DNA of 21,414 bases from a virus. Location: IMG/VR virus record IMGVR_UViG_3300050821_006905, positions 1 to 21,414 of that record; one strand, written 5' to 3'. The notes under the pieces were generated by a model that worked only from the letters and a program-made list of their open reading frames with translations, searched no databases and was not told the origin of the DNA. The translations under genes and the position numbers were made by a program. This document shows, piece after piece, positions 1 to 21,414 of the stretch (the first letter of the stretch is position 1; every line of letters starts with the position of its first letter).

Positions 1-534
1 GGATTGCGTCGCCAGGTTTAAGGTTCCTGCGAGATTATTGAAGTTTACGTTCTGCCATGTCCCTGCGCCTGGAGCAGTATTGACAACTGATTGCCCAACA
101 GAGCCGCCGCTAGGTAAAGCTCCGCCACCTCCGCCTGACCCTGCCGGGCCTTGCGGACCGAGATTCAGCCCCGTCGTAATCGTCACAGCGAAACTCCCGC
201 TCGTAAACGTTGTTACATCAGCGCAAATATCAGTAAAGCCATTCATCGAGTACGTTGTCGTGCCAGCCGTCGTAAGCGTTGCGGCGGTCGTCCACGACCC
301 ACCACCATTATTCGATTCGCGGATTGTTAAAGTGCCGGAAAATGTACCAGCAAGATTTACCGTTGCCGTAGCGGCATTTGACGGTAGCCGCTGCCATAAG
401 AAGCTTCCGCTCGTCAAGCACGTACCAGCATCTTGAACGGTTAAATTACCACCAAGGGGGTTAGAGTTTGTCGCTTGCGCGAATAGCGATATAGGTGATA
501 AGAAAAACAGAAGAGTTAGAAATAGTCGTTTCAT
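1..534 (-). CDS. Secreted-type phage appendage protein, 3' end beyond window
   Basis: Reading leftward from ATG 534, the frame stays open for all 178 codons to the window edge, so the C-terminus is missing. GGAG lies 5 bases upstream of the ATG. The N-terminus starts MKRLFLTLLFFLSPISLFAQ, a textbook Sec signal peptide: Lys-Arg, a hydrophobic core, then L-F-A|Q with predicted cleavage after residue 19. The mature part is Thr/Ser/Gly-rich with short beta-type segments and two cysteines. A GPQGPAG collagen-like stretch and a run of Gly follow at about residues 128-140, a common linker in phage fibres. It follows the tailspike gene by 22 bases and is probably a third receptor-binding or fibre protein. 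The function is inferred from position and composition; no enzymatic motif is visible. Confidence 0.75.
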   Translation of the reverse strand, partial: MKRLFLTLLFFLSPISLFAQATNSNPLGGNLTVQDAGTCLTSGSFLWQRLPSNAATATVNLAGTFSGTLTIRESNNGGGSWTTAATLTTAGTTTYSMNGFTDICADVTTFTSGSFAVTITTGLNLGPQGPAGSGGGGGALPSGGSVGQSVVNTAPGAGTWQNVNFNNLAGTLNLATQS

Positions 535-556
535 TGGGGCTCCATAGTTAAGGGGG

Positions 557-2662
557 TCATCGCGTCACCCTAATATTGTCTGTTTCCGCTACTGGCACGA
601 TAGCTCCAGCCGTAGGATTGAAATAAGCGCACGTTATGCTTCCAGCAGCAGGCCAGCACTGTGTTTTAAGCGGCGCGTTTGTTACGCTTTGCTGCGCGTT
701 TGGCGTGATGATGATTGTGTCTGTTGCGAGCACGTTCGCCACAGCCCCTCCCGTAATCGTTGGTGTCACGTTCGCTCCAAAAGCCCCCGCCGCAATCGCC
801 GCCGTGGTCATCGTGGCTGTGCCGCTGACGATGGTCTGGGTCTGCTGGAAAAAGGTTCCGTTGTTGTAGCTGCATTTCAGAACATGAAGTGTCGAATCGC
901 CATAACAGGCATCTTGATTTAGGGCTGCGCTAGGTGCTCCGGTTTCCAGCAAACTCCACCCGAATGGCATATTAAAGAGATTGTCATTCAGGGTGAATGT
1001 CCGCGCTGTGAACGGGTTGGTAGCCTGGAACTGATAGAAGTTTCCACCAATTTGGTGCTGCACCGAGAACACGTTCGTATTCGGGCCTGTGCCAACCAGG
1101 GCTGGGGAGGTCAACGAGCATCCTAAAGAAATACAGAAGGCGGCATTCGCTCCAGGGTCAGAGATTGATAGGTTTCGATTGGTGGCGGGATTATTGATGG
1201 TCAGGTTGTACTGATTAGCCCTCACGCCCGTAGCCGAATAACTGGCAAGGAATGGAACTGCCAACGGGTCTGGATTTAATGCTTTAGAGAGTGTTCCGGC
1301 AACGGTATAGGTAAATCCCCCGTTATCCGAGATTGCGCCGGATTCGATTGCTAATGTGTAGCCGCTGGGAATACTGTAGAAGGCTGCCCCACTGCAACCT
1401 GTACATTCCGACTTGAAAGCGAATGTCCCGCCAACAATCGTGTTCACGCCACTCGTGGGAAAGGTTGAGCCCGACATGGCGATAACGGTTGTGCCAGTAG
1501 CAGATGTGGTGTTTCCGGTTGCTTGCCAGATGCTCCCGTTATGAACACCGCCCTCGTAGCTAAAAGCAGTTTGATTCGCCAGCGTAGAGTATTTCAGCCC
1601 GTAGTAGCGGTTATATTGAAAGCTGGCGTTGTTTACGCTCGCCGTCGTCACGCTCCATCGGAAATCCTTTGTGTTTCCGAGTTGCGAGCCGGGAGTCTGT
1701 CCGCAAAACACGTTATTGACGATGTTAGCTTCGAAGAAGAAGTTCTTGTTCTCGAACCACATGCACGCGCCGCTCGCGCCCGTGAAGCCATCGGCAGCTA
1801 AATCATCAAAGCGCCCGCCTACCATGTCGCCGAGATGGAAAGCAACACCATTCGCTGTGCCTGTTCCGCGAACTGAGAATCCGCTCGTGCGAAACCCCGG
1901 AGTGATAACCGCCCCTGCTCCCTCTTGTGTATTGAAGCAATCCCCATTAACCGTACAGTTGAAAGTCAGGGCAGCAGCCCCTGGACCGCGCAGCCATAGG
2001 TACGGACTTCCGGCGTTTACTGTCGTTCCGCACGGAACCGGTTGAGAAGCGGAAGCGAGTGCGGTAAAGTCCACGATTCCAGAACGAAATCCCGCAACTA
2101 ATGGCAGATTGGAAATCTGAGTGTTTATAGCCGCGCAGGCATCACTACCAGCAGATGTTACGTAGAGAGTGCTGTCGATGCTCGTGGCCGTCACCGGCCC
2201 TGTGAAGGTCTCTGTCCCTGAGTGCGTGTTGTTCCCGGTGAAGTTGTTGTTGGCCCCAGTGCTAACATTCCCCGGTGCTCCTGCATAAAACGGCCCAAGA
2301 TTCACTCCGCCCGCAAGCGTAACCGTATAGTCGTAGCCTATCGCGTTCGACGCAACCCACACGCCCCAATTATTCTGGCTGTCAGGGGATGCGACGCAAG
2401 TCGTAGTTCCGTCACGAACGATTTGCGTAGAAGTCGAGCATGGAGTCGAGAGCGTTTGATCTGTATAGGTCGTAGCTAGATTCGTGCATGGAACGGCGTT
2501 TGCCGGATGAATGCAGAACTTCACTACTGGAGCAGCGGGAAGCGTAACGACGTTAGCCGCAATACCGACAGTGCCTTGCTGCGTCACGGTAGAGCTGAAG
2601 CGTATGCCTTGCGCGGCGGCGCTCGAAGCGAGAAGAAAGAAAAGAAATAAGAGACGTTTCAT
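557..2662 (-). CDS. Tailspike-like beta-helix protein with signal peptide
   Basis: This 701-aa protein is probably the main receptor-binding tailspike. The N-terminus (MKRLLFLFFLLASSAAAQ) is a clear signal peptide with predicted cleavage A17|Q18. The middle (about residues 170-400) reads like a pectate-lyase-type beta helix, with short repeated Gly/Asn/Asp turns such as HLGDMVGGRFDDLAADGF and FFFEANIVNNVFCG. The C-terminal 90 residues (TATMTTAAIAAG ... CWPAAGSITC ... NIRVTR) resemble a beta-sandwich module that recurs at the ends of phage tail proteins. It holds 18 cysteines, many in close pairs (NCTVNGDC, ECTGC, CISLGC), which is unusual for a cytoplasmically folded phage protein. The Shine-Dalgarno sequence is poor, so it may be coupled to the 24-aa ORF ending 9 bases upstream. 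No catalytic residues could be assigned, so depolymerase activity is unproven. Confidence 0.8.
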   Translation of the reverse strand: MKRLLFLFFLLASSAAAQGIRFSSTVTQQGTVGIAANVVTLPAAPVVKFCIHPANAVPCTNLATTYTDQTLSTPCSTSTQIVRDGTTTCVASPDSQNNWGVWVASNAIGYDYTVTLAGGVNLGPFYAGAPGNVSTGANNNFTGNNTHSGTETFTGPVTATSIDSTLYVTSAGSDACAAINTQISNLPLVAGFRSGIVDFTALASASQPVPCGTTVNAGSPYLWLRGPGAAALTFNCTVNGDCFNTQEGAGAVITPGFRTSGFSVRGTGTANGVAFHLGDMVGGRFDDLAADGFTGASGACMWFENKNFFFEANIVNNVFCGQTPGSQLGNTKDFRWSVTTASVNNASFQYNRYYGLKYSTLANQTAFSYEGGVHNGSIWQATGNTTSATGTTVIAMSGSTFPTSGVNTIVGGTFAFKSECTGCSGAAFYSIPSGYTLAIESGAISDNGGFTYTVAGTLSKALNPDPLAVPFLASYSATGVRANQYNLTINNPATNRNLSISDPGANAAFCISLGCSLTSPALVGTGPNTNVFSVQHQIGGNFYQFQATNPFTARTFTLNDNLFNMPFGWSLLETGAPSAALNQDACYGDSTLHVLKCSYNNGTFFQQTQTIVSGTATMTTAAIAAGAFGANVTPTITGGAVANVLATDTIIITPNAQQSVTNAPLKTQCWPAAGSITCAYFNPTAGAIVPVAETDNIRVTR

Positions 2663-2671
2663 AGTTCCATT

Positions 2672-2746
2672 TTACCGATGTAAATATTTAAATGCATGGA
2701 AATTAAGCCAAAGCCCAACAAAAGCAACATAAGTAAACCAATCCAT
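2672..2746 (-). CDS. 24-aa single-pass membrane microprotein
   Basis: A short ORF in the 93-base gap between the tail fibre and tailspike genes. It has the best ribosome binding site in the region: AGGAGG at 2757-2752, 5 bases before the ATG, overlapping the fibre gene's TAG stop. The peptide starts MDWFTYVAFVGLWLNF and ends in a His/Lys/Arg-rich tail (KYLHR), so residues 3-20 could span a membrane. It stops 9 bases before the tailspike ATG. It could be a small membrane peptide, such as a lysis or export helper, or simply a translated leader that feeds ribosomes to the poorly initiated tailspike. The ORF and its ribosome binding site are seen; the function is unknown. Confidence 0.5.
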   Translation of the reverse strand: MDWFTYVAFVGLWLNFHAFKYLHR

Positions 2747-2751
2747 AAAAG

Positions 2752-2757
2752 CCTCCT
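2752..2757 (-). promoter_or_regulatory. Strong ribosome binding site for the 24-aa ORF
   Basis: The minus strand reads AGGAGG, CTTTT, ATG: a perfect anti-16S match at good spacing, partly inside the TAG stop of the tail fibre gene. It is the main reason to treat the short ORF as translated. Confidence 0.65.
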
Positions 2758-3928
2758 ATCCAATCTTTTCTAGATATGGGTTTATGACATATCCTGGATT
2801 GCTAGTACACCCAGTTCCCAATGTATAGGTCGTTGAAAATTGAATATTTGTAGCAGATGCGGCTCTAATTAGCACCATCGGGGAAAGAATGTTTGACGAA
2901 GCGCTAATTGACAGCGGTTTACTTGCCGTTCCATTCCCCACGATTACAAAACCAGTATCAGCGGAAAATATTTGACTGGTTCCGCTCGATGGATCAGTCC
3001 ATAAAACGTTCGCTAGAATCGTAGTATTGCCGGTGCACCCAACCCCAACCACACCTTGATTTACATAAAAAACAATTCGATATACTGAAGAAAGTCCGAA
3101 ATTAATTGGTACCGCTGTCATCGTTGTAGCCGGTATAGACGTAGATGAAGAAGTTGAAGTGCTATAAACGATACCTGCTGCCAGGGCCCAAGTTCCATCG
3201 CCACGCCAAAAAGTAGAATTAGATGCATTGGTGCCGCTGTTTAAAAGCGTGACAGGGAAAAAATTCGCCGTTCCTCCAGCAGTACCGCTAAACGTAGGGC
3301 TTGCAATTGTTGGATTACCGGAAATCGTCCCTGTTATCGCGGGACTTACAATCGTTGGCGTTGTCAGCGTCTTATTCGTCAGCGTTTGCGTCCCCGTCAG
3401 CGTCACGAAGCAATCCCAAATCGTAGTAAATCCACGAAAGCATGGAATGTCGGACCTGTACGCAAGCTCTCCGGCTACGCTGCTCGGATCGACCGTCCCG
3501 CTTGCGACGATGAAGTTGCTGCCACTATTGATGATCGACCACGGATTTTTGTTGATTTCCTTCCAGAGCTGCGTTCCTTCGCTTACGCTACAAAGCGTAT
3601 TCGCAACGCCTGTATTCGCTACGATATCGTATCCGACGTTCGTCATCCAGACGGAAGCTTCTCCAGCAGCGTCAAGCGTAAGCGGGTTACTAAGTTGATT
3701 CACGCCGCCGGAATCGGCATAGATCGCTTGCCGCGTCGAAGTCCCTGTTGCGAAGAAATCCATACAGCCACTGGCGAGCGGTACACCTGTAGAAGAGAGA
3801 AACTGCTGGCGCGCGAGTTGAAGCGGAGCGACGGCGACTTGAGCGCGTCCTACGCACGAAAATAGTGCTAGAATAACGAACGTGCAAGTCGTTCTTCGCG
3901 TCGCTTTTATTTTTCTACTAATGTTCAT
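2756..3928 (-). CDS. Tail fibre protein with signal peptide
   Basis: A 390-aa fibre protein. Residues 1-29 form a signal peptide: a basic n-region (RKIK, RR), core CTFVILALFSCVGRA, then Q30. Residues 31-110 match the N-terminal virion-attachment module common in phage fibres (QQFLSSTGVPLASG, then an Ala/Thr stretch, NPLTLDAAGEASVWM). Around residues 180-250 it has the typical fibre repeats LTGTQTLTNKTLTTPTI and STFWRGDGTWA. The C-terminal 130 residues are beta-rich with two TGC or VGC sites and probably form the tip. Six cysteines remain after cleavage. GGAG lies 9 bases before the start, 23 bases after the ejection gene. The 3' third of the gene is visibly AT-richer, suggesting an exchanged tip. 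The fibre role is well supported by motifs; the meaning of the signal peptide is not known. Confidence 0.82.
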   Translation of the reverse strand: MNISRKIKATRRTTCTFVILALFSCVGRAQVAVAPLQLARQQFLSSTGVPLASGCMDFFATGTSTRQAIYADSGGVNQLSNPLTLDAAGEASVWMTNVGYDIVANTGVANTLCSVSEGTQLWKEINKNPWSIINSGSNFIVASGTVDPSSVAGELAYRSDIPCFRGFTTIWDCFVTLTGTQTLTNKTLTTPTIVSPAITGTISGNPTIASPTFSGTAGGTANFFPVTLLNSGTNASNSTFWRGDGTWALAAGIVYSTSTSSSTSIPATTMTAVPINFGLSSVYRIVFYVNQGVVGVGCTGNTTILANVLWTDPSSGTSQIFSADTGFVIVGNGTASKPLSISASSNILSPMVLIRAASATNIQFSTTYTLGTGCTSNPGYVINPYLEKIG

Positions 3929-3951
3929 CGTTCGCGTTCTCCAAGCTTTCT

Positions 3952-5475
3952 TTAGGGCGCTGATTGCTGTAATCGTTTCAAAAGCGCGTAACCGCCGAAA
4001 CCGCCGCCGAGCAAACCACTGCCAATCCCCGCAGTTACCCCAATCCTCTTTAATGCGTCCAAAGTGAAAGAACCGCTAGCCGGAAGTGGAGTATACGGCG
4101 AAGACTTCGGCATCTCTGGCACGGCAGCTTCCGCTTTCTGGACTGCGGTCTGCGGAGGCGTCCATTTACCGGCCATGTACTTTCCGGTATTCTGGCGCAC
4201 TACGTCTACTGCTTGCGCTAAATCCCCGTAATGCATATCTACGGTTTTCATGCCCGGTACGGCGTCGTGAAGATCGCTAGACACAGCGTTATAGATCGCG
4301 CGGCCTACGCCTCTCAGGGAATCGGTCGTAGCGTTCGGCCCGAAGTTTGCATCGTTCTTTAACGCTTGCCGGAGCGCTAATCCCTGCGTTGGCGTTGCTT
4401 GGCGAATGTTGTCAATCCCCAATTCCTGTTGGTGACTATTGATGATCTCAATCGCTTTCTCTTGTAAGCTTGGGTCTTTGATTCGATTCTTAATGACATT
4501 GAAAACAGACTTCCCTGCGTCGAATGTGACGCCACTCTCCGTTGCTTTGTCCGCCGTAGCTTGTACGGCTTTTCCCGCCGCTTGAAAGCGCGGGCCGATT
4601 ACCGCCGCTTGGTCCGGTGGCGTCATTTTTTGAAGCACTTCCGGTACGAATCCTTCCGCTTCGAGGCCACGCCCAGGTATCCCGTAAGCATTCGCAATAT
4701 CAGTGGAGCCTTTCCCGATACGAATAGTTTTCGAAGCTGAAGTTCCGATAGACTGGTTAAGGTCACTCCAATTCCCGAGTTGCCCTTGCGGTTGCGCGGC
4801 TTTCACGGCAGCGACGTTTGCTTGCCCTTCCGCTACTGCTTGAGCGCCCTTCTGTTCAACGGCCATGTAGCGCGCAAGATTCGCGTTCTTAGCTTCTTCG
4901 AGCGCTTTCGTATAGCCGGTTACATTACTCCAAAAATCTCCTAGCTTTTCAGCCGCTGGAGCGATAAGTTTTTTCCCGACCGACGATAAAGCAGTCGTTG
5001 CAAGTTCCGCCGCTGGCTGAAGAACCGTACCAGCAATCCCGGTTATTGCCGCTTCTCCAGGCGTAGCTCCCCCAGCTAGCGCTCCTGCTCCACTCCCCGC
5101 TCCAACAGCTCCTGCGCGTAAGAGCATCGTCGGAGCCGTACCGCCAGCCATTGCTCCTGCTGCTGTACCGGCAAACTTTGCCGACTCCCCTTGGTAAGCG
5201 CTACTAACATCCGCAGTTGGAGCAGTCGGCGGAAGATTCAAATCGTTTCGCAAACGGAGTTGTTCTTCAGGTTGTTTTGCTACTGCTTGCGCGGTAGGAG
5301 TTCCTAGATTCACTCCCGTCAAATGCGTGATATACCCCTTTTGGCTTTCGGGATCGAGGCCAGCAAAGCTCTTATCGACGGATGATAAATACGCGCGCTG
5401 TTGATCTGTATGCATAGCGCGAAACGTCGCGTCCTTACTCAGCGCGTCGTAGTCGATTTGTGGAGTATCAGCCAT
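3952..5475 (-). CDS. Ejection protein, P22 gp16-like position (507 aa)
   Basis: Probable internal virion protein injected with the DNA to help it cross the envelope. The start is taken at ATG 5475, which overlaps the upstream stop by one base (TAATG); an in-frame start 10 codons upstream lacks this coupling. Residues 1-60 are helical and polar. Residues 100-155 are a Gly/Ala-rich hydrophobic stretch (AGTAAGAMAGG, AGAVGAGSGAGALAGG), and a second glycine-zipper segment (GVTAGIGSGLLGGGFGGYAL) lies near the C-terminus. Both could insert in membranes. The part between is long amphipathic helix, including LRQALKNDANFG ... RAIYNAV ... AVPG, a pattern seen in many podophage ejection proteins. It has no cysteine. 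It is last of three ejection genes, as gp16 is in P22; the equivalence is by position and composition. Confidence 0.65.
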   Translation of the reverse strand: MADTPQIDYDALSKDATFRAMHTDQQRAYLSSVDKSFAGLDPESQKGYITHLTGVNLGTPTAQAVAKQPEEQLRLRNDLNLPPTAPTADVSSAYQGESAKFAGTAAGAMAGGTAPTMLLRAGAVGAGSGAGALAGGATPGEAAITGIAGTVLQPAAELATTALSSVGKKLIAPAAEKLGDFWSNVTGYTKALEEAKNANLARYMAVEQKGAQAVAEGQANVAAVKAAQPQGQLGNWSDLNQSIGTSASKTIRIGKGSTDIANAYGIPGRGLEAEGFVPEVLQKMTPPDQAAVIGPRFQAAGKAVQATADKATESGVTFDAGKSVFNVIKNRIKDPSLQEKAIEIINSHQQELGIDNIRQATPTQGLALRQALKNDANFGPNATTDSLRGVGRAIYNAVSSDLHDAVPGMKTVDMHYGDLAQAVDVVRQNTGKYMAGKWTPPQTAVQKAEAAVPEMPKSSPYTPLPASGSFTLDALKRIGVTAGIGSGLLGGGFGGYALLKRLQQSAP

Positions 5476-6956
5476 TATTGTGGTTTCTTTTGCTGCGCGA
5501 GCCATTCGGACGGAGAAAGAATTTTCTTAGCAGCAGGTTCTTCTCCGAAATTGGCTTTCCCTTGCCGTCCCTGCTCAACTTGCGCCTTGAGCGCATCACG
5601 CTTCGAGTTCATTAACTGAATCGCACTCGCAATAGCTCCTTTAAGCTGCGCCGAAGAGTTCGCAGCGCTGAACGGTTGCTCAACGGCCTTGATCTCCGCA
5701 TCCGTCGCTTGACCACCTTTGAAAACTTTCGACATTTCTCCAGCTAGAGCATTCTTCACAACATTGAAATTCGTTACCGCATCTTTGCCAAGCTCGACGT
5801 TCAAACGATTGCCGATCTTGTTGTAAGTCTGGAGATTCGTATTATCAAGCGCATTCGCATCTTCCTGCAACTGCTTCGCGTGCTCGATTGCTGTATTGAA
5901 GTTCGTAAGATTCGTCGCAATCGCTCCAGAAGTCGCGGATTTCATCACGCCTTTTTCGATGTCATAGTCCGCCGTCGAGTAATTCGGGTATTTCTCTAAA
6001 ATCTGATTAACCGCCGCTTGCTTTACGGCCATTGGTGCGCGCATCGGAATAACATCCGAAAGTTTTAACTTCGCACCAGGAGCAGCAAGAGCATCGATAA
6101 CCGTATCAGTTAGCGGAGCTTTCGCACCGCCAGCACCAAACTGCGCCATGATTTGCGCCATCGGATTAAGCGAAGCGTGCCATTTCGCAAAATCGGCTGG
6201 CCCTTTACCGGGATTTTTCGCAAGCCAATCGGCCATTACACGCTGATCAACAGGACCGCCTTGCGCCGTAAGCATCTTCGTATGTTCTTCCGTAGCTTTC
6301 GACGTGGCAGTCTCTTGTATCGCTCTTATAGAATCCTGCTTCGCTTTATCGGTATCTGCGGAAGTCTTCGCATCCGCAAGCATCTGCGCGTGCATGCCGA
6401 TAGCCGATTCCGTAGATTGCAAAGTATTATCATCGAAACTTTTCAATTGAAGCTTGGAAGTATCAACTCCAAGCTTTTGAAGGTTCGGTAATCCTGCTTG
6501 GAAAATAGCAGGCCGCTTCGTAACGTCCGGCTCGCTACGCATGCCTTCGAGTAATTCATAAGAAGCTTTATTTTTCGCCGCTTCGTTATTGCGAACCGTC
6601 TCCGCCGCCGAAGCAAGGTCTTTCGTTGTCGTCGCGTATTGCATACGCATTTGATTCACAGTCGAGGGATTGACTTGCTTCCCAAGTGCTTCGTTGAAAT
6701 ATCCTTCCGTATCGAATCCCGTTACGTTTCCTTTATCGTCTTTCGTGACGTGATTCGGAGCAAGAGATCGCAATGTCATTTGATCTTTAAGCGCCAACTC
6801 TCGCTGTTGATTCTCTTGGCCTAACGCCGTCTGCTGCAACTGCTGCGTCTGATTCTGCGATTGCGAATTGCGAATCTGCTGGAGTTTCGCATATAGCTCC
6901 AGTGGCGATTCTTGTTGCGTATGAACGGCAAGCGCGGGAAGTGGAATCGATGCCAT
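5475..6956 (-). CDS. Ejection / DNA-transfer protein, P22 gp20-like position
   Basis: A 493-aa, cysteine-free, mostly helical protein, probably packaged in the capsid and ejected with the genome. Residues 20-65 are very Gln-rich (QSQNQTQQLQQTALGQENQQ), which is typical of podophage ejection proteins. The C-terminal third (about residues 350-470) carries a helical pattern common in this group: NTAIEHAKQL, then ALDNTNLQTYNKIGNRL, AGEMSKVFKGG, ATDAEIKAVEQPFSAANS, AIQLMNSKRDAL. GGAG lies 8 bases before the ATG and the upstream stop sits inside that spacer. Its order (second of three) matches P22 gp20. No enzymatic motif was recognised. Confidence 0.65.
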   Translation of the reverse strand: MASIPLPALAVHTQQESPLELYAKLQQIRNSQSQNQTQQLQQTALGQENQQRELALKDQMTLRSLAPNHVTKDDKGNVTGFDTEGYFNEALGKQVNPSTVNQMRMQYATTTKDLASAAETVRNNEAAKNKASYELLEGMRSEPDVTKRPAIFQAGLPNLQKLGVDTSKLQLKSFDDNTLQSTESAIGMHAQMLADAKTSADTDKAKQDSIRAIQETATSKATEEHTKMLTAQGGPVDQRVMADWLAKNPGKGPADFAKWHASLNPMAQIMAQFGAGGAKAPLTDTVIDALAAPGAKLKLSDVIPMRAPMAVKQAAVNQILEKYPNYSTADYDIEKGVMKSATSGAIATNLTNFNTAIEHAKQLQEDANALDNTNLQTYNKIGNRLNVELGKDAVTNFNVVKNALAGEMSKVFKGGQATDAEIKAVEQPFSAANSSAQLKGAIASAIQLMNSKRDALKAQVEQGRQGKANFGEEPAAKKILSPSEWLAQQKKPQ

Positions 6957-6959
6957 CGC

Positions 6960-7772
6960 TTATTCTCCCGGCCCGTATCCAGTATTTCCTCCAGGCGCCT
7001 GCCCTGGAGGATAGAGATTCTTTAGCATTGCATATTGAGCAAGATTCCCGAACGCTCCGCCAATCGCATTCGCGCCACCAACGTAGCCACTCGCTTGCGC
7101 TGCCGCCGCGTTATTCATTTGCTGCCCGATCTGCGCGCCGCCAGTCAGCGAGATATTCGCAATGTTCCCTGCCGCTGCTTGTCCTTGATTGCCAAGCTGT
7201 GACGCGGAAGTCTGGCCGAGTCCCGCAAGCGAAGCGTAACGATTAAAGATATTTGATTGTCCTTGCTCGAACTGATTGTATCCTTGCTGATACTGCTGCA
7301 TCGCGCGGTTATAGACATTCTGATAGTTCTGCTCACCGGCCTGTTGCCCGAATTGCGTAAGCGCTTCGCCGGTATTCCCAGTAAGAAGATTCCCGCTCGC
7401 AGCGGCAGAGTTCGTAAGAGCATGTGTACCTTGCTCAAGTGCAAACTTATAACCTGGCTCATTTTGTGCTTGCTCCATCGTCGGAGCTTGAAATTGTCCC
7501 GTCCATGGCGCTAGCGGGCCTTGACCTGTAAGCGCTTGGTCCTGAAGGCCGGAAAGCGTGCCGATAGCACCTTGCCCCGCTTTGATCCACGGAGCCATGT
7601 TGCCTTGCTGCTGTTGCCATACTTGTTTCTGGAAATTTAGCGCATCCTGCTGCGACTGATACTGAAGCTGCGCGGCATTATTTGCAGCATCAGCTTGCGT
7701 ATGAGCAGCTAGGCCGGAACCTACAGCTCCAATGATCGCTCCACCGCCAATCGCTACGGCAATAAAGGACAT
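6960..7772 (-). CDS. Ejection / DNA-transfer protein, P22 gp7-like position
   Basis: A 270-aa protein beginning with a hydrophobic Gly-rich segment (FIAVAIGGGAIIGAVGSGLA, residues 3-22), followed by Gln-rich coiled helix (residues 28-60). The centre has a motif very common in phage DNA-transfer proteins: EPGYKFALEQGTHALTNSAA, then GNLLTGNTGEALTQFGQ, QNYQNVYNRA and NRYASLAGLGQTSA (about residues 105-190). The tail is Gly/Ala/Gln-rich. No cysteine. The start overlaps the end of the cupin-like gene by 19 bases. It is the first of the three ejection genes, as gp7 is in P22. The motif makes the DNA-transfer family assignment fairly safe; the exact role is inferred. Confidence 0.75.
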   Translation of the reverse strand: MSFIAVAIGGGAIIGAVGSGLAAHTQADAANNAAQLQYQSQQDALNFQKQVWQQQQGNMAPWIKAGQGAIGTLSGLQDQALTGQGPLAPWTGQFQAPTMEQAQNEPGYKFALEQGTHALTNSAAASGNLLTGNTGEALTQFGQQAGEQNYQNVYNRAMQQYQQGYNQFEQGQSNIFNRYASLAGLGQTSASQLGNQGQAAAGNIANISLTGGAQIGQQMNNAAAAQASGYVGGANAIGGAFGNLAQYAMLKNLYPPGQAPGGNTGYGPGE

Positions 7773-8215
7773 TCCTTGCCCCCTATCGCCGCGTTAAACT
7801 CCTCGAACGTATCGACTACGAGCAATTTTTCCGCTTTCTCCGCGTCTTTCTCGTTGCAAGCGTGGATAGTCGTCCACACTGTTTCTTCGTGAGCGTAACC
7901 AACTCGCTTGATTCCAGGCCGAGAAATAAGAGTCGCTGGAGCCTTGATTCGCTTAACGCCATTCTCCGTAAGAACGGAAATATCTCCCTTGGAGATGATA
8001 TTGATATGCTCGAAGAGATGAATTTTTCCGGTAAGCAAAGTTCCTTTAGGGATAGTGATTTCACGGGCGTACAAACCTTCCGCGAAATAATGAACAGGCT
8101 CTATTAGAATCTGTCCAGGCTGCTCGCGCATCTTGTCTTCTAACTGAAGAATCTTTTCGCGCAGCACGTCTTCACCGCTCGTAAGTGTAGCGGGCGAGTC
8201 GAAAGGATCAACCAT
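7754..8215 (-). CDS. Cupin-like phage structural-region protein (153 aa)
   Basis: A helical N-terminus (residues 14-33) is followed by a beta-rich domain with cupin-like character: HYFAEGLYAREITIPKGT, LLTGKIHLFEHINIISKGD, then RIKAPATLISRPGIKRVG and YAHEETVWTTIHA. Histidines at KIH, FEH, YAH and TIH could line a barrel. Similar small cupin-like proteins are, from general knowledge, often found among podophage structural genes with no established job. It lies between the gp10-like and gp7-like genes, where P22 carries the tail needle gp26 and gp14. ATG 8215 is chosen because it follows the previous stop by 11 bases; a GTG at 8257 would add 14 residues and overlap. Its Shine-Dalgarno is weak, so coupling is likely. 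Confidence 0.65.
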   Translation of the reverse strand: MVDPFDSPATLTSGEDVLREKILQLEDKMREQPGQILIEPVHYFAEGLYAREITIPKGTLLTGKIHLFEHINIISKGDISVLTENGVKRIKAPATLISRPGIKRVGYAHEETVWTTIHACNEKDAEKAEKLLVVDTFEEFNAAIGGKECPLLP

Positions 8216-8226
8216 TCGTTCAGCTT

Positions 8227-8478
8227 CTAGAACGCTACTGGCACGAACTTGATCCACTTGTTCACCGTCCCATCGTAAACGTAATAAAACCCGCCGCCCA
8301 CCGCCGTCTGTCCGTGTTGACCGGGAGAATTAGCGCTCACTGGTGCTTGCTGATTAGCTGGAGTCTTCAGCTGTTGCGCCGTAAGCTGTAAATGTATATC
8401 CCAATCGCGCGTCAATCTTCCATTCTTATCGGTGATCGGTACTTCCGACGGCGCGCGAAATGGAAGCTGCTGGCTCAT
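8227..8478 (-). CDS. Small phage tail-region protein (83 aa)
   Basis: The ATG at 8478 overlaps the stop of the gp10-like gene (ATGA), so translation is probably coupled; this start removes 34 spurious upstream codons that lie inside the gp10-like gene. The N-terminus (FRAPSEVPITDKNGRLTRDW) is followed by a helix, and the C-terminus ends GGGFYYVYDGTVNKWIKFVP. That ending resembles the short aromatic beta module (Y-Y-V-x-D-x-T-x-x-x-W) often seen at the end of small phage structural proteins. At 83 aa it is far too short to be a P22-type tail needle, although it is in that gene's position. Function unknown. Confidence 0.65.
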   Translation of the reverse strand: MSQQLPFRAPSEVPITDKNGRLTRDWDIHLQLTAQQLKTPANQQAPVSANSPGQHGQTAVGGGFYYVYDGTVNKWIKFVPVAF

Positions 8479-10037
8479 GCAACCTCCGCCATCTGATGCG
8501 TCAAGCGCTTCCGCGGCGATGGCTGCGTCTTCGGGTTCACATAAGCATCGATAAATCGCCACGGTACAGGATCGCTGCAAGAAACCTCGAATACCATGTC
8601 ACGTGCCCGCCCTAAGCGGCGGAACGAGGCGCGCTGGCTATACTTACCAGCTTGTCCGCAATCAGCTATGCGTGTCTGCCCGTAAGTATGCCCACCGTTA
8701 CGCGAACAGCGCAGCATGAGCTGCGGGCCGCGAGCATTTCCAGCCCCATCGAGCAGCGGCGGTTCTGGCCCAAGCCCCGTTTCCAGATAAACCTCCAATT
8801 CGTTGTAGCGCATCCATTGATGCTCGACATTGATATGCGGCGCGCGGCGCAAACGGCGAATCGGAGCGCCATTGTCAGTAACAAAATTCCACCCGCCTCC
8901 AGCTTGAACAGGGGATGACATTTGATACGTTCGTCCACTCTGACGATCTCCAACCAAATGCTTCCCAAAATTGAACGTATGGCAAATCGGGAGCGCTGCT
9001 TGATAAGCTCCGATGCGCTGATTCCAGAAACCGCATTTATGCCAGAGCCCCGTCGATACGTCGTACGCTAACGTTACTTGCGCGGAAGGAAAAGTAGTTC
9101 TCCAAATCGAATGACCATTCTCCTGATACGCAAAAGAAATGGCATCGGAAATCCTTGGGAACTGTTGCACCATCGTTTCTATAGCATGCGTCGAAATACG
9201 CTGAAAAGTAGCGCCGCTCGTCCGATAAGCGATTCCTTGCCCTTGATCGTTCCTCGCTCCCCACAAGAAAATCGCATTATCTAGCTGACTGATAGCAAGC
9301 GGAGCAGCGCAGCCTTGCTCTGCGAAACCGCTAGGCATTGGCGCTAACGGAAAAGGAAAGCCGCCAATGTCATAGTCCGATTCTGTTTGCTTCGCGCCAA
9401 ACATCCACAGGAACCGATGGTCGGCAATCATGCCAATGACGTTATCGGCATATGTATTGATTATTTTGATTTGAAGCGCGGACCATCCCGTAGCGGTCGC
9501 ATCAAAAGAGTTCGAGGAATATACAGTTTGCGACGAAGCAACGAGCAGGAAGAAGAAACTGTCAATAAAAGCAATCTCCGTTACTGTCGCAGGCTGCCAC
9601 GGTCCTGCTACTAGACCCGTAAACGTTCCAGCAACTATATTCGGAACTTGCTGTGTCGCAAGTTGGTAGGAATATAGATTCCCCGCGCTTACGATAGCAA
9701 GTTGCTGAGGACAAGCCGCGAAACTTACGAAGCTACCATCGTTTCCAACATTCCCGATAGCGGTTACGTTTCCATTCGCAAGCTCTTCATAGAGCGTAGC
9801 ATCAACTACTTTGAACGTTCTCCCGGCGCTTGGCCCCGTCGTGATCGTATAATTCCCGCGTACTTGATTCCCGCCAGGATTGTTGAATTGCGAAAGACCG
9901 GGAGTCGAATAGAGCGTCATCGCGGATACGCCCATCTCGCTTTCGACTTTCTCTGGGAGCAAATTAATACACTCCTGCGCGTCCGCGTTAACGGACTGCG
10001 AAGTGTATGTTCCGCCGCAAAAGCCGATTCTGCTCAT
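8475..10037 (-). CDS. P22 gp10-like packaged-DNA stabilisation / tail hub protein
   Basis: A 520-aa protein. In P22, gp10 closes the portal-gp4 channel after packaging and forms part of the tail hub (472 aa). The start resembles that family: CGGTYTSQSVNADAQECINL, then LPEKVESEMG and LYSTPGLSQF (residues 8-52), the usual N-terminal 'N-L-P ... S-T-P-G-L' arrangement. The rest is beta-rich with propeller-like strands (AFIDSFFFLLVAS, HRFLWMFGA, AIFLWGARNDQG). The C-terminus has SRNGGHTYGQ and RRLGRARDMVFEVSCSDPVP, which is frequent in this protein type. It follows the gp4-like adaptor by 12 bases with only a weak Shine-Dalgarno. Order and motifs agree well, but no search was run. Confidence 0.8.
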   Translation of the reverse strand: MSRIGFCGGTYTSQSVNADAQECINLLPEKVESEMGVSAMTLYSTPGLSQFNNPGGNQVRGNYTITTGPSAGRTFKVVDATLYEELANGNVTAIGNVGNDGSFVSFAACPQQLAIVSAGNLYSYQLATQQVPNIVAGTFTGLVAGPWQPATVTEIAFIDSFFFLLVASSQTVYSSNSFDATATGWSALQIKIINTYADNVIGMIADHRFLWMFGAKQTESDYDIGGFPFPLAPMPSGFAEQGCAAPLAISQLDNAIFLWGARNDQGQGIAYRTSGATFQRISTHAIETMVQQFPRISDAISFAYQENGHSIWRTTFPSAQVTLAYDVSTGLWHKCGFWNQRIGAYQAALPICHTFNFGKHLVGDRQSGRTYQMSSPVQAGGGWNFVTDNGAPIRRLRRAPHINVEHQWMRYNELEVYLETGLGPEPPLLDGAGNARGPQLMLRCSRNGGHTYGQTRIADCGQAGKYSQRASFRRLGRARDMVFEVSCSDPVPWRFIDAYVNPKTQPSPRKRLTHQMAEVA

Positions 10038-10049
10038 CGTTCAACACTC

Positions 10050-10898
10050 TTAGTCATTTGTCTGCTTCGACCGATAATTGTAATCACTTCTCTTCCCGCT
10101 ACCTCGTCCTCCAGGTATTCCAGCATCCCGCGTCCCTGCTACTGGCGAAGTGATATTTAGCACCGTAAACCGCCTTAGCGCTGCGCGCTTAAGCTGTTCT
10201 AGGTTCGCCGTCCACGGAAGATCGAAGTCCGGCGCTATCATTTCTGCGAGCGAATAGACGAACGCCATCGTTCCGCCTTGAGGAAGCTGGACACTATCCG
10301 CAAGCTGATACTGACTAAGCAGCGTTTGCACTAACAGTTCAAGCGGATATGCTACGGTCGGAACAACCCACATAAACATCGAGCCGTTCGGGTAATCTTC
10401 TTCGTAGTACATATCCGTTGGCGTGACGCTTTGTACTCCCGGAGCGGCTTTCCTTGACCACCACTTGCCTTTATCCTGATGGACTGTAACTTTTAAGCGT
10501 ACCGTTGTCTGCCCAATCCACGGAGCGGCGGCAAGCGCATTAAGTAGAATATTCGCGTCAAGAATCTTTACCGGGCGCTGAAGGATTCCAGCCGCTTGGT
10601 TGAAATTCGCCGTACCCGTAGGCCCAATTAAATGCGGCTGAAGGTTCGGCGTTAACTTACCAACGAAAAACGTATTAGCCCAAACGTAAGCTCTCGCAGC
10701 ATTCCACGAATCAATTAAGATATTCGCTTGCGCTTGAACATCGGCGGCCTCCGCCGCCTCCGGTATATCCGCGGGGTCAATAGCGCCAATCTTTACCATT
10801 GCCATCTTACAAAGATCGAGCAGTTTGAACGAACCCGTGCCTCCAGGGGCTAAGTACGACCCTGCAACTACGGGCACTTGTGGAGGAAGTACCGGCAT
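10050..10898 (-). CDS. P22 gp4-like head-tail adaptor
   Basis: A 282-aa protein, longer than P22 gp4 (166 aa). In P22, twelve gp4 copies bind the portal and start tail assembly. Residues 20-75 show the typical pattern of this adaptor group: KLLDLCKMAMVKIGAIDPAD, then an Ala/Glu-rich stretch, QAQANILIDSWNAARAYVWA. Near the C-terminus, LAEMIAPDFDLPWTANLEQL followed by KRAALRRF matches the helical end seen in such adaptors. The extra length may be a beta insertion at about residues 80-180 (VRLKVTVHQDKGKWWSRKAA). GGGAG lies 9 bases before the ATG; the previous stop is 12 bases upstream. Its neighbours (coat region upstream, gp10-like downstream) fit the same assignment. Confidence 0.75.
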   Translation of the reverse strand: MPVLPPQVPVVAGSYLAPGGTGSFKLLDLCKMAMVKIGAIDPADIPEAAEAADVQAQANILIDSWNAARAYVWANTFFVGKLTPNLQPHLIGPTGTANFNQAAGILQRPVKILDANILLNALAAAPWIGQTTVRLKVTVHQDKGKWWSRKAAPGVQSVTPTDMYYEEDYPNGSMFMWVVPTVAYPLELLVQTLLSQYQLADSVQLPQGGTMAFVYSLAEMIAPDFDLPWTANLEQLKRAALRRFTVLNITSPVAGTRDAGIPGGRGSGKRSDYNYRSKQTND

Positions 10899-10912
10899 TC
10901 AGAGCGCTCCCT

Positions 10913-11368
10913 TTACGCCGCTACTGTCTGAGCTTGTTCTTCCTGCTTCTGCTTCAATTCCGCCGCGAGTTCGCGCTCCAGCCGCTTAATGTTCTCGTCG
11001 CGCGGGACTGCACCACGTTGCAGCTTGTCGATATGCTTCTGAGTTGGCTTTGCCGTCCAACCCTTCTGCTTCATCAGCTCGCCGTACTCTTCCTCGTCTT
11101 CGACGCTTTTCATCGAGCCGCTTTCGTGATAGACGAGTTTCGGCCATGCTCCCGCAGGCGGAACTTGCTGGAAATGGTCCGGCGACTTTGCGATGCATAG
11201 CGCCTTGAGCTTCGCATCGAACGGCGCTTCGCCTTCGTTGATCATATGGCACATGATGCGTTCCATATTCTCATCGATGCGCTTGTCGGCTTTTCCGTTC
11301 GCGTCCTGGAACGCTTCCGGGAATTGCTGCTTGCATTCTTTGATGCTGAGACGCTTTTTCTTTGCCAT
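10913..11368 (-). CDS. Hypothetical phage protein (151 aa)
   Basis: Not recognised as a named family. It is highly charged, with a basic start (MAKKKRLSIKECKQQFPEAF). The middle carries WPKLVYHESGSMKSVEDEEE followed by YGELMKQKGW (about residues 75-107), which resembles a short motif in many small phage proteins ('P-x-x-x-Y-H ... V-x-x-x-E-E ... GW'). The C-terminus is a Lys/Glu/Gln coiled helix (NIKRLERELAAELKQKQEEQ). It sits between the probable decoration protein and the gp4-like adaptor, so a head-completion or connector role is possible but only inferred. Confidence 0.7.
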   Translation of the reverse strand: MAKKKRLSIKECKQQFPEAFQDANGKADKRIDENMERIMCHMINEGEAPFDAKLKALCIAKSPDHFQQVPPAGAWPKLVYHESGSMKSVEDEEEYGELMKQKGWTAKPTQKHIDKLQRGAVPRDENIKRLERELAAELKQKQEEQAQTVAA

Positions 11369-11378
11369 GCCTATCTCC

Positions 11379-12119
11379 TTATTTTGTAAACCACGTTCCG
11401 GCGGTCGTGCAATTGAAAATTAGCATCGTGCCAGCAGGCACAGCGATAGCAGTGTTTGCGGCAAGCAGGTTGATGTTTTCCCCTACTGCGGGGAACACAT
11501 TCATTGAGTTAGCCGCGGCCCTGTTAATAACGGTGATTTGCCCACCGACGTAAGACGCCGGCAAAGTAATAGAATCAGCTGCCGTAGCTACGATGGCGAC
11601 CGTATTCATCATCCGGTTGATCGCCGGGCCACCGCCCTGCCCACCACCCGCTTTTGCGACCAAGTTATCTTGCGAAGAAAGAGTTTGAAGGCCAGGCCCG
11701 CCGAAACCGGTTGCAAGCCCTTCCGTTTCCCAGAAACCTGCGAATGTACTGACATAGATGCAGACAGAATTCTGCATCTGGCTGACGCCAACAGCCGCCG
11801 CTTGACCATCGATAACATCTGCACCGGAACCAAATACCTGCATTGGATTCGCACCGCGATTAATGAGCATAATATCTAATCCAGGCGCGGCGGGCGGTAA
11901 TTTAACGGAATCTCCGGCAGTAGCGACCGTAGTTACTTTCGCTGTCTGGCCGGTGATCTGCGTAGCATTTGCTTGCCCACCTCCAGCGAAAGCTACGATA
12001 AGAGTCTGTGAAAACTCTTGAAATAAACCTTGAAACGTGAACCCTGAAAGAATCTGATCCATCGCATCTTTCGTGAATGCTCCGAATTTCGTAACGAGCG
12101 GCGCGCCTACTGAAGACAT
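11379..12119 (-). CDS. Probable capsid decoration / head-fibre protein with duplicated domain
   Basis: A 246-aa protein. After a helical N-terminus (residues 1-45), two copies of one beta domain appear, at about residues 60-132 and 172-246. They share VTTVATAGDSVKLP / VAIVATAADSITLP, then INRGANPMQVFG / INRAAANSMNVFP, a turn with DVIDG or ENINL, and end IYVSTFAGFW / FNCTTAGTWF. A Gly-rich linker (AGGGQGGGPA) joins them. This beta module is common in phage surface proteins. Position just after the coat gene suggests a decoration or head-fibre protein. AAAGGA lies upstream of the ATG, and a GC-rich stem-loop precedes the gene. Fold and role are inferred; the duplication is directly visible. Confidence 0.65.
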   Translation of the reverse strand: MSSVGAPLVTKFGAFTKDAMDQILSGFTFQGLFQEFSQTLIVAFAGGGQANATQITGQTAKVTTVATAGDSVKLPPAAPGLDIMLINRGANPMQVFGSGADVIDGQAAAVGVSQMQNSVCIYVSTFAGFWETEGLATGFGGPGLQTLSSQDNLVAKAGGGQGGGPAINRMMNTVAIVATAADSITLPASYVGGQITVINRAAANSMNVFPAVGENINLLAANTAIAVPAGTMLIFNCTTAGTWFTK

Positions 12120-12147
12120 ATTCTATTTCCTTTCAATGAAAAGGTGA

Positions 12148-12173
12148 GGGGAGGTCGGAAACAGACCCTCCCC
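12148..12173 (-). terminator. GC-rich stem-loop before the decoration gene (attenuator-like)
   Basis: On the minus strand GGGGAGGGTC pairs with GACCTCCCC around the 7-base loop TGTTTCC (9 bp, one bulged base). It is followed by TCACCTTTTC, a weak U-run. It lies in the 66-base gap between the 287-aa gene and the 246-aa gene. It could be a weak terminator lowering expression after the coat region, or an RNA-processing or stability element. The downstream genes have no visible separate promoter, so complete termination is unlikely. Confidence 0.45.
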
Positions 12174-12185
12174 CTGTTGAATTGT

Positions 12186-13049
12186 TTAACGGCTCGGATA
12201 CCACTTCCCGTCAGGTCCGTTCCACTGCCAGCATTGCATAATGCCAACAACTGCCGTAGTGGCGGCTCCGATGTTATTCGTCGCCGTAGTCGTGTAAGCA
12301 CCCGTAGGAATAACGCAGAATTGCGCCGTTTGTGAATTAACCGTTGCGGCTCCAGCAACACCGATATTCTGGTTCCCGGTGAACGTCCACGATGTAATCG
12401 CGTTCGCACCGGAAATCTTGAATACCGGCCCGCCAACGTTCGTAGCACCAGCAACGCTCGCAACAGTAGCTTGCGAAGCACCGAGCGGAAGCGCGGGATT
12501 ATTGAATCCCGGCGTCCAAACCAGTGAAGCTGCATTGCAATACCACTGCGTGCCGTTACGGATATTTACCCACGGCGAAACAACAACGTTATTCAAGATG
12601 CATGGCACATTGGAAGTGGAAGCAGAGCCTCCAATTCCGCTACTGCCAGGGTCTTGAACGTAGAAAAAACGCGGTGGCCCGAAGAGTACCATCGCACCGT
12701 TTGAGTGCGGCGTCGCTACAGTCGAGTTGATGCCGCGCACAACGGTTAGCGCCGTACCGTTTACGCCGATGACAAGCATCTCTTCGCGATCAACGAACAG
12801 CGCAGTTTGAAAGTTCGGCTGCCCTGCTGTAATCGCAAGAAGCGGGTTAGCGCCAACGATACTCGTTGCCGACGTAACGGTGATAATCGTCGGAGCAGGA
12901 ACGTTTCCCGTCGAGCCCGGCCCAAGATACTGACCGGCTACGGCGGCGGAAAGCGTTGTCTGCCCAAGGAAGTTCTGCTGCGCTTGGGCTGTCACTCCAC
13001 AAGCGGCAAGCAAAACTGCGAGAACTGCGAGTTTAAGATAGTTCTTCAT
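12186..13049 (-). CDS. Beta-rich surface-type protein with signal peptide, next to coat gene
   Basis: A 287-aa protein of unknown function. The frame opens with a GTG at 13070, but AAGGAG at 13064-13059 points to ATG 13049, giving MKNYLKLAVLAVLLAACGVT followed by AQA|QQ. That is a good signal peptide, cleaving after residue 23. It also contains LLAAC, a lipobox-like site with Cys17, so a lipoprotein is an alternative. The mature part has ALFVDREEMLVIGVNGTALT, then VVRGINSTVATPHSNGAMV and LFGPPRFF, a pattern seen in phage structural proteins near the head genes. It ends with aromatic modules (WVNIRNGTQWYC; CWQWNGPDGKWYPSR). Four cysteines remain after cleavage. Position suggests a minor capsid or surface protein, but the signal peptide argues for export; both are inference. 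Confidence 0.7.
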   Translation of the reverse strand: MKNYLKLAVLAVLLAACGVTAQAQQNFLGQTTLSAAVAGQYLGPGSTGNVPAPTIITVTSATSIVGANPLLAITAGQPNFQTALFVDREEMLVIGVNGTALTVVRGINSTVATPHSNGAMVLFGPPRFFYVQDPGSSGIGGSASTSNVPCILNNVVVSPWVNIRNGTQWYCNAASLVWTPGFNNPALPLGASQATVASVAGATNVGGPVFKISGANAITSWTFTGNQNIGVAGAATVNSQTAQFCVIPTGAYTTTATNNIGAATTAVVGIMQCWQWNGPDGKWYPSR

Positions 13050-13058
13050 GTTCGTTAG

Positions 13059-13064
13059 CTCCTT
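13059..13064 (-). promoter_or_regulatory. Ribosome binding site that fixes the 287-aa start
   Basis: AAGGAG, 9 bases before ATG 13049, overlaps the TAA stop of the coat gene (TTAAGGAG). It rules against the upstream GTG start, which would place the site inside the coding region and hide the signal peptide. Confidence 0.75.
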
Positions 13065-21308: not shown

Positions 21309-21414
21309 GGGTGACGAGTCTCTCTTCTCGCCACCCGCTTGGGGTGACGAGTCTCTCTTCTCGCCACCCGCTTGGGGTGACGAGTCTCTCTTCTCGCCAC
21401 CCGCTTGGGGTGAC
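21309..21414. repeat. 33-bp tandem repeat with internal hairpin, at window edge
   Basis: Three complete identical units (starting 21309, 21342 and 21375) and seven bases of a fourth that runs off the end. Each unit is GGGTGACGAG, loop TCTCTCTT, CTCGCCACCC, spacer GCTTG. The arms pair over 10 positions; read from the minus strand the single mismatch becomes a G-U pair, so the RNA hairpin is complete in the terminase direction. Because the arms alternate, each 3' arm can also pair with the next 5' arm across the 5-base spacer. There is no U-run, so it is not a standard terminator. Possible roles are a TerS binding site (pac/cos), a leader RNA switch, or a phage end repeat. The total copy number cannot be seen here. 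Bases 21284-21308 between the array and terS hold nothing recognisable. Confidence 0.85.

Follow-up and report, generated by a model that had tools for sequence, protein, structure and literature searches.

Assembly of tailed phages is taught as cytoplasmic, and virion proteins that use Sec leaders are known from filamentous phages, as in the M13 coat proteins pIII and pVIII. For one binding protein, the lack of a signal peptide was even counted as support for a phage origin (Benler 2018, PMC6199706). According to Israel 1967, as cited in PMC3741392, heads and tail parts of P22 join in vitro. The literature searched, which covered few subscription papers and leaves novelty unproven, yielded no description of tailspike export in a tailed phage.

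Here we analyzed the whole 21,414-nucleotide stretch (the window) of IMG/VR record IMGVR_UViG_3300050821_006905, which we read as late genes of a P22-like podophage that infects Acidobacteriota, probably Terriglobia. P22-type coat, portal, scaffold, Hc3 and ejection proteins are all present in that gene order, each with a PHROG match; the major coat protein has 301 relatives among viral contigs, and distant relatives bear the annotation P22 coat protein.

Predicted leaders in the late region

The first-pass annotation had assigned signal peptides to four genes, numbered here gene 1 (1-534), gene 2 (557-2662), gene 3 (2756-3928) and gene 4 (12186-13049). All four open reading frames were found at these positions on the minus strand, and a home-made scorer, used instead of SignalP, confirmed a predicted Sec/signal-peptidase-I-type leader at the start of each, with a net charge of +2 to +5 at the N-terminus, a core free of charged residues (mean Kyte-Doolittle hydropathy 2.9-3.4) and small residues acceptable at -3/-1. 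When whole sequences were shuffled, the observed leader score was reached in 0, 0, 39 and 1 of 2000 shuffles for genes 1, 2, 3 and 4, respectively, making the gene 3 leader the weakest of the four taken singly. The features are as follows, with a slash marking predicted cleavage.

1..471, minus strand: mature gene 1 protein, 2 Cys, collagen-like GPQGPAG (from the sequence)
472..534, minus strand: gene 1 predicted Sec signal peptide, LFA/Q or LFAQA/T (home-made scorer)
557..2611, minus strand: mature gene 2 protein, 684 aa, 18 Cys, probable second appendage protein
2612..2662, minus strand: gene 2 predicted Sec signal peptide, MKRLLFLFFLLASSAAA/QGIRFS (home-made scorer)
2756..3556, minus strand: gene 3 distal part, putative receptor-binding or enzymatic, 4 further Cys
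3557..3841, minus strand: gene 3 head-binding domain, mature residues 1-95, Cys pair 26/84 (profile match)
3842..3928, minus strand: gene 3 predicted Sec signal peptide, ending CVGRA/QVAVAP (home-made scorer; relatives' leaders)
6960..7772, minus strand: DNA ejection protein, no leader (phrog_598, E 2.5e-30)
8475..10037, minus strand: head closure Hc3/tail hub, no leader (phrog_578, E 1e-84)
12186..12980, minus strand: mature gene 4 protein, 264 aa, 4 Cys, directly downstream of the major coat gene
12981..13049, minus strand: gene 4 predicted Sec signal peptide, MKNYLKLAVLAVLLAACGVTAQA/QQNFLG (home-made scorer)
13063..14304, minus strand: major coat protein, P22-type, no leader (phrog_283, E 3e-49)
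15382..17610, minus strand: portal protein, no leader (phrog_156, E 9e-66)

That the other virion genes lack leaders was likewise borne out when the scorer was run on all window proteins, none of which showed the pattern outside genes 1-4: in the head-closure protein an AxA site is present with no hydrophobic core, and the ejection protein at 6960..7772 has a hydrophobic yet uncharged start. Across 60 related loci, the leader test was passed by 73 of 435 open reading frames downstream of the coat gene versus 9 of 241 upstream.

The predicted gene 3 leader comprises 29 residues, with its cleavage site at MNISRKIKATRRTTCTFVILALFSCVGRA/QVAVAP, and stronger leaders occur in four of its relatives (L083, L084, L172 and L173). 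A profile built from gene 3 with L083 and L084 matched the tail spike 9vyg (E 5.5e-5) and the "Tailspike head-binding domain" of 7eeq (E 3e-4), and profiles of the wider family matched this domain at E values of 1e-12 to 7e-16; gene 3 had no Pfam match. The domain aligns with the tailspike of Xanthomonas phage PBR31 from Met1 of the latter, and in leaderless relatives such as this one Met1 is exactly the predicted mature start of the cleaved protein. Tailspikes usually carry this domain at or near Met1 with no leader, a trait from which gene 3 departs, and the leader in front of a tailspike head-binding domain is a new feature. The mature gene 3 protein has six cysteines.

Gene 4 has a good Shine-Dalgarno sequence (GGAG) upstream of its start, and the leaders of most of its coat-linked relatives end in AxA/Q[QT]. 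Its N-terminal ~105 mature residues form a virion-type beta domain in an AF2 model (pLDDT 84, pTM 0.81); residues 1-105 of the model matched the JBD30 baseplate (8rk3_b, Z 9.8), the VP1 capsid (9in6_M, Z 9.0) and the GP4 tail (8jov_1, Z 8.0), and the gene 4 profile matched the phage Chi minor tail protein (8vjh_A, E 6e-8). Matches of the model to ATP synthase were judged to be common beta arrangements and not kin, and no gene 4 relative was found in INPHARED. A lipoprotein processed by signal peptidase II was also rejected: the lipobox-like LAAC occurs in the window leader only, and the family's leaders keep AxA/Q and not the lipobox [LVI][ASTVI][GAS]C.

Gene 1 is cut by the contig end, so that 178 residues are visible, and its predicted cleavage (MKRLFLTLLFFLSPISLFA/QA/T) may fall either before or after QA. 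The gene 2 leader is retained in relatives L163, L084 and L165, the first of which is 63% identical; the AF2 model of gene 2 was unusable (pLDDT 31).

Relatives, cysteine pairs and the residue after predicted cleavage

The comparison of homologues proposed by the first-pass annotation yielded relatives both with and without leaders, and the leaders are a trait of a phage group that extends beyond this one contig. Two cultured phages of Acidobacteria, Tunturi_1 and Tunturi_2, have five leader-bearing proteins each, and an Acidicapsa dinghuensis prophage likewise has such proteins. In Terriglobia genomes the leader was present in 10/10 relatives (8 by the scorer, 2 by eye), and at Pseudomonadota loci it was missing from 9 of 10. 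No such leaders were found in the virion region of Tunturi_3 and Tunturi_4, which infect Tunturiibacter, and export is thus not obligatory for that host. The same arrangement in one phage contig of a betaproteobacterial MAG (L171/G005:C94) means either that host restriction is not strict or that the contig is misbinned. The window phage is known from a metagenomic contig; Tunturi_1 and Tunturi_2, which are unrelated to it and have the same trait, are podoviruses (PMC11924767).

Among 105 non-redundant relatives compared over the head-binding domain, a cysteine pair inside the domain was found in 25 of 30 members with a leader versus 0 of 75 without; even cysteine totals occurred in 24/29 and 25/51 gene 3 family members, respectively. 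In the gene 4 family the mature cysteine count is even in all 43 non-redundant members (43/43), and paired positions shift together. The leader-linked pair and the even counts would be characteristic of proteins that are truly exported and disulfide-bonded. The domain pair is absent in 5/30 leader-bearing spikes, and also in several Terriglobia prophages. The tree of this short domain is weakly resolved, with 10 changes on the best tree and 2 forced by well-supported branches, so the leader and cysteine counts are not independent; a paired test on the tree was not significant, there being too few well-supported pairs.

Gln is the predicted +1 residue in genes 2, 3 and 4 (gene 1 is ambiguous) and in 51 of the 73 proteins that are coded downstream of coat genes and carry a leader. 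The shared A/Q site had been read as adaptation to one host's signal peptidase. This did not hold up: by the home-made scorer, Q ranks first among +1 residues in Acidicapsa, yet at about 26%, and it is equally common in a betaproteobacterial MAG (about 25%); a first, stricter count gave too few signal peptides for use, with none in E. coli 0-50 kb. N-terminal protection by pyroglutamate fits the frequent +1 Q of the phage proteins better. Acidicapsa, host of one prophage relative, encodes a glutaminyl cyclase (PF05096, E 6e-94), VKOR and DsbA-like proteins; no glutaminyl cyclase was found in three acidobacterial MAGs.

Proposed route of assembly and its rivals

We consider it probable that the adsorption proteins are exported, cleaved, oxidised and perhaps N-terminally cyclised, and then bind particles at lysis. 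Precursors with Sec signal peptides, namely the head-binding tailspike, at least one further appendage and the coat-adjacent protein, would be exported by SecYEG and cleaved at A/Q by signal peptidase I; in the oxidising periplasm they would fold and gain disulfide bonds, and the exposed Gln would probably be cyclised to pyroglutamate. Heads would be assembled and filled in the cytoplasm without the exported proteins, lysis would mix both pools, and the head-binding domains would fix the spikes onto the particles. The leader, cleavage position, head-binding domain, cysteine pairs and host enzymes are the sequence-supported parts of this route. Among the ideas first raised for these leaders, that of exported appendages joining finished particles at lysis has the best support, from a leader directly before a virion-attachment domain and from gained cysteine pairs; predicted export is well supported, and we infer that it takes place, that pyroglutamate forms and that the mature proteins join virions at lysis and are present on them. 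The trait suggests that in one group of short-tailed phages infecting soil Acidobacteria the tailspikes, along with a coat-adjacent protein, mature and gain disulfide bonds outside the cytoplasm and join the particle only at cell burst. We lean only slightly towards the wider claim that many tailed phages of Terriglobia pass their whole adsorption apparatus through Sec, have it disulfide-bonded and end-capped in the periplasm, and attach it to finished heads only at lysis, the leader having been gained or lost more than once together with disulfide gains.

Action on the host surface, another of the early ideas, is unlikely but keeps some plausibility: the exported proteins would not be virion parts and would serve in the periplasm or at the surface in receptor masking, superinfection exclusion or exopolysaccharide digestion, in the manner of lysogenic-conversion proteins from tail regions. 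One of these, lambda Lom, has a signal peptide and its gene lies between tail genes (PMC12309495), and some relatives are prophages within sequenced Terriglobia chromosomes. However, this role leaves unexplained why the head-binding domain is retained right behind the cleavage site; the loci examined, which are partial, gave no further copy of the domain without a leader as a candidate virion spike, and the arrangement also occurs in Tunturi_1 and Tunturi_2, for which neither an integrase nor a recombinase was annotated by the authors. Dual use, in which surplus exported spikes are freed as depolymerase or decoys while some of them attach to particles, appears improbable; gp14 of Tunturi_2 is annotated as a pectin lyase, with a PF12708 match just under the cut-off, and export would place such an enzyme outside ahead of lysis.

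It is very doubtful that the leader stays uncleaved in the virion as a hydrophobic anchor, as had also been suggested, or as a segment that pierces a membrane. Although the leaders are hydrophobic and N-terminal, and some ejection proteins (6960..7772) start hydrophobic, the small-x-small/Q site is conserved, the predicted mature start coincides with Met1 of leaderless relatives, cysteine pair gain is linked to the leader, and sequence drift is fast in the leader but not in the mature part (pN/pS 0.74 versus 0.25). Chance hydrophobic starts are rejected on shuffles and conservation and, together with wrong start codons, have a negligible probability, since, although the gene 3 leader is weak alone, leaders persist in dozens of relatives despite sequence divergence, and ribosome-binding sites precede many leader starts.

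Comparison with known systems

If a virion-attachment domain routinely passes Sec, a late assembly step would run across a membrane, disulfides would be open to phage adhesins, and tools that reject a "phage structural" annotation on account of a signal peptide would miss a class of receptor-binding proteins. Tunturi 1 and 2, the first cultured acidobacterial phages, carry the trait, which makes it testable now.

With P22-like tailspikes (7eeq, 9vyg/9vyh, PBR31), gene 3 shares the N-terminal domain and the late P22-like gene position; compared to them, its family adds a Sec leader, and most leader-bearing members gain the domain cysteine pair. As in the Bacteroidetes Q-rule for Sec/SPI substrates, predicted cleavage exposes a Gln and one prophage host has a glutaminyl cyclase, whereas here the phylum is Acidobacteriota, Q makes up about 26% of predicted +1 residues and the proteins are phage appendages. 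Lom and exported conversion proteins are, like the window proteins, signal-peptide proteins coded among tail genes, but Lom is described as an outer-membrane beta-barrel (PMC12309495) and the window proteins bear virion-attachment domains. Unlike filamentous phages, which assemble at the membrane, the window belongs to a tailed phage that encodes terminase, portal and scaffold and whose heads would be filled in the cytoplasm.

Late-gene content and predicted leaders

The window record is an IMG/VR viral contig of 21,414 bases, and its minus strand encodes the late genes of a P22-like podophage. On this strand, genes for the small and large terminase subunits, an HNH endonuclease, portal, scaffold and coat are followed by the gene at 12186-13049, adaptor-region genes, head closure Hc3, a short-tail-fibre adhesin, an ejection protein, two large cysteine-free proteins and, finally, the genes at 2756-3928, 557-2662 and 1-534. 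The features discussed here are as follows.

1-534, minus strand: gene 1, running off the contig end
557-2662, minus strand: gene 2
2756-3928, minus strand: gene 3
6960-7772, minus strand: ejection protein
8227-8580: short gene preceding the tail-fibre adhesin, in another frame than the Hc3 gene, whose end it overlaps; translation probably begins at an ATG towards the end of the overlap
8475-10037, minus strand: Hc3 gene
12186-13049, minus strand: gene 4, coat-adjacent
21310-21414: perfect tandem repeat of a 33-bp unit, GGGGTGACGAGTCTCTCTTCTCGCCACCCGCTT, present about three times; it lies at the contig end, upstream of the small terminase subunit gene, and may be an artefact of the assembly end or a repeat with a packaging or regulatory role

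Leaders were scored with a home-made scorer modelled on known E. coli leaders, which combines n-region charge, an uncharged hydrophobic core and a site matrix from -6 to -1. The first-pass annotation had assigned leaders to genes 1 to 4 alone, and this was borne out, as all four pass every scorer criterion and no other window gene meets them all. Whole-sequence shuffles matched the observed leader score 0, 0, 39 and 1 times per 2000 for the four genes, respectively. The ejection protein has a Gly/Ala-rich hydrophobic start, MSFIAVAIGGGAIIGAVGSGLAA, common to relatives and devoid of positive charge, which looks like a membrane-active segment rather than a signal peptide.

Leader-bearing proteins and their relatives

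The four genes had no good PHROG or Pfam family match, gene 4 matching tail-protein family phrog_1101 weakly (E 1.6e-4). In gene 3, a tailspike head-binding domain immediately follows the predicted cleavage site: a three-sequence profile matched the 9vyg tail spike (E 5.5e-5) and the 7eeq tailspike head-binding domain (E 3e-4), with wider domain profiles reaching E 7e-16. Met1 of leaderless relatives coincides with the predicted mature start, evident by alignment of QVAVAPLQLARQQFLSSTGVPLASG from the window with MAVQIAPLPVMRFYDNNNNPLAGG from the Xanthomonas phage PBR31 tailspike and with MAVVSPTAKAQFIDAAGIPLAGG; the corresponding part of the PBR31 tailspike was named the virion-binding domain by its authors (PMC10975493). 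The predicted structure of gene 4 (pLDDT 84, pTM 0.81) resembles, over its first ~105 residues, virion domains of phages JBD30, VP1 and GP4 (Z 9.8, 9.0 and 8.0), and its profile matched the phage Chi minor tail protein (E 6e-8). Their position, leaders and cysteine content mark genes 1 and 2 as putative appendages.

The leaders are a trait of the lineage, beyond this contig. Of 435 ORFs lying downstream of the coat gene in 60 related loci, 73 passed the leader test, compared to 9 of 241 upstream; because some of the downstream ORFs are spurious frames, this count understates the true fraction. In most relatives having the coat-adjacent gene, its leader ends AxA|QQ or A|QT, and loci without it usually carry a different, leaderless gene there. 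Appendage modules of relatives (loci L028 and L083) hold up to five leader genes within a few kilobases.

Coat-protein relatives, found in three Acidobacteriota MAGs, a prophage of the isolate Acidicapsa dinghuensis and one contig in a betaproteobacterial MAG, link the phage group to Acidobacteriota. In the Acidicapsa prophage, the coat-adjacent gene and a 706-aa spike both begin with leaders. Independently of the window lineage, the cultured acidobacterial podophages Tunturi_1 and Tunturi_2 each have leaders on five virion-region proteins (gp12, gp13, gp14, gp16 and gp17, with 20, 10, 21, 2 and 32-34 cysteines), while none was found in the regions examined of Tunturi_3 and Tunturi_4. In the paper describing these phages, signal peptides go unmentioned and no virion proteomics is reported (PMC11924767). 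Within the gp12-gp17 region (L176:10371-23028 in Tunturi_1; L179:9802-22744 in Tunturi_2), the up to 34 cysteines of the single protein gp17 are unusually many for a phage structural protein.

Among 399 genomes of Terriglobia, the class of Acidicapsa, the head-binding domain occurred in 10, several in contigs of 0.4 to 6.4 Mb, and all 10 copies had a hydrophobic leader (8 called by the scorer; L442 and L446 by eye). In Pseudomonadota, nine loci were leaderless and one, on phage contig G005:C94, had a leader (Fisher test by scorer, 0.0007 without this contig and 0.005 with it). L434, an acidobacteriote that only the phylum-wide draw reached and whose domain match is weak, was leaderless. Contig G005:C94 (L171/L452; 29,084 bp), binned into a betaproteobacterial MAG, has this leader-bearing appendage module too, and one of the module's proteins is 869 aa long with 20 cysteines; either the contig is misbinned or the trait reaches past Acidobacteriota.

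Cysteines and the cleavage site

Because disulfides form in the periplasm, truly exported proteins are expected to show even or paired cysteines. The first-pass annotation had proposed a search for homologues with and without the leader, and both were found: the 176 head-binding-domain proteins, reduced to 105 once near copies were removed, comprise 30 with and 75 without it. A cysteine pair within the domain is present in 25/30 with a leader versus 0/75 without (Fisher 1.5e-19, kinship ignored). Whole-protein cysteine content is 1.85% versus 0.68%, and the cysteine total is even in 24/29 (p 3e-4) versus 25/51. On the weakly resolved domain tree, the leader label needs 10 changes, and well-supported branches force 2 of these. 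The head-binding-domain proteins L409 and L417, with a leader but neither the cysteine pair nor Gln at +1, are possibly separate gains in another host group.

All 43 non-redundant gene-4 family members have 2, 4, 6 or 8 mature cysteines, whose positions move pairwise (QFC..QCW versus GCF..FCW). Mature cysteines in window genes 1 to 4 number 2 (truncated), 18, 6 and 4, and the scaffold and ejection proteins have 0. The leader is drifting (pN/pS 0.74), with its hydrophobicity maintained, whereas the mature part is constrained (0.25).

Gln occupies +1 in 51 of the 73 leader-bearing phage proteins. The A|Q site had been read as adaptation to one host's signal peptidase; this is not supported, since Gln at +1 of predicted signal peptidase I sites is about equally common in two bacterial genomes, being the commonest residue in Acidicapsa at only about 26% (L181-L184, L186-L190 and L231-L270) and reaching 25% in a betaproteobacterial MAG. 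In Bacteroidetes, Gln bared by signal peptidase I becomes pyroglutamate, stabilising exported proteins (PMC5837995, PMC10653852). Acidicapsa has a glutaminyl cyclase gene (E 6e-94), and the leader-bearing phage proteins may likewise carry pyroglutamate. The Acidicapsa +1 Gln share hints at a weak Q-rule in Acidobacteriota, a phylum that goes unmentioned in the 2018 paper on the Q-rule.

Export, assembly and known systems

Most likely, the precursors would be exported through Sec and cut; the mature proteins would undergo oxidation and fold in the periplasm, and would bind filled heads once lysis mixes the compartments. Acidicapsa has VKOR and DsbA-like genes. Late spike attachment is mechanically plausible because P22 heads join with tail parts in vitro (Israel, Anderson and Levine 1967, cited in PMC3741392). 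The main rival, in which the exported proteins work on the surface of the host cell without ever becoming particle parts, shares the export step; retention of the head-binding domain makes it less likely, as does the lack of a second, leaderless domain copy in the partial loci examined. A benefit of export followed by head binding might be tougher adhesins for acidic soil.

We found no report of tailed-phage tailspikes with a Sec leader in the literature searched, and one study took the absence of signal peptides to favour a phage origin of binding proteins (PMC6199706). Already known are tailspikes with this head-binding domain and exported conversion proteins encoded in tail regions, such as lambda Lom (PMC12309495).
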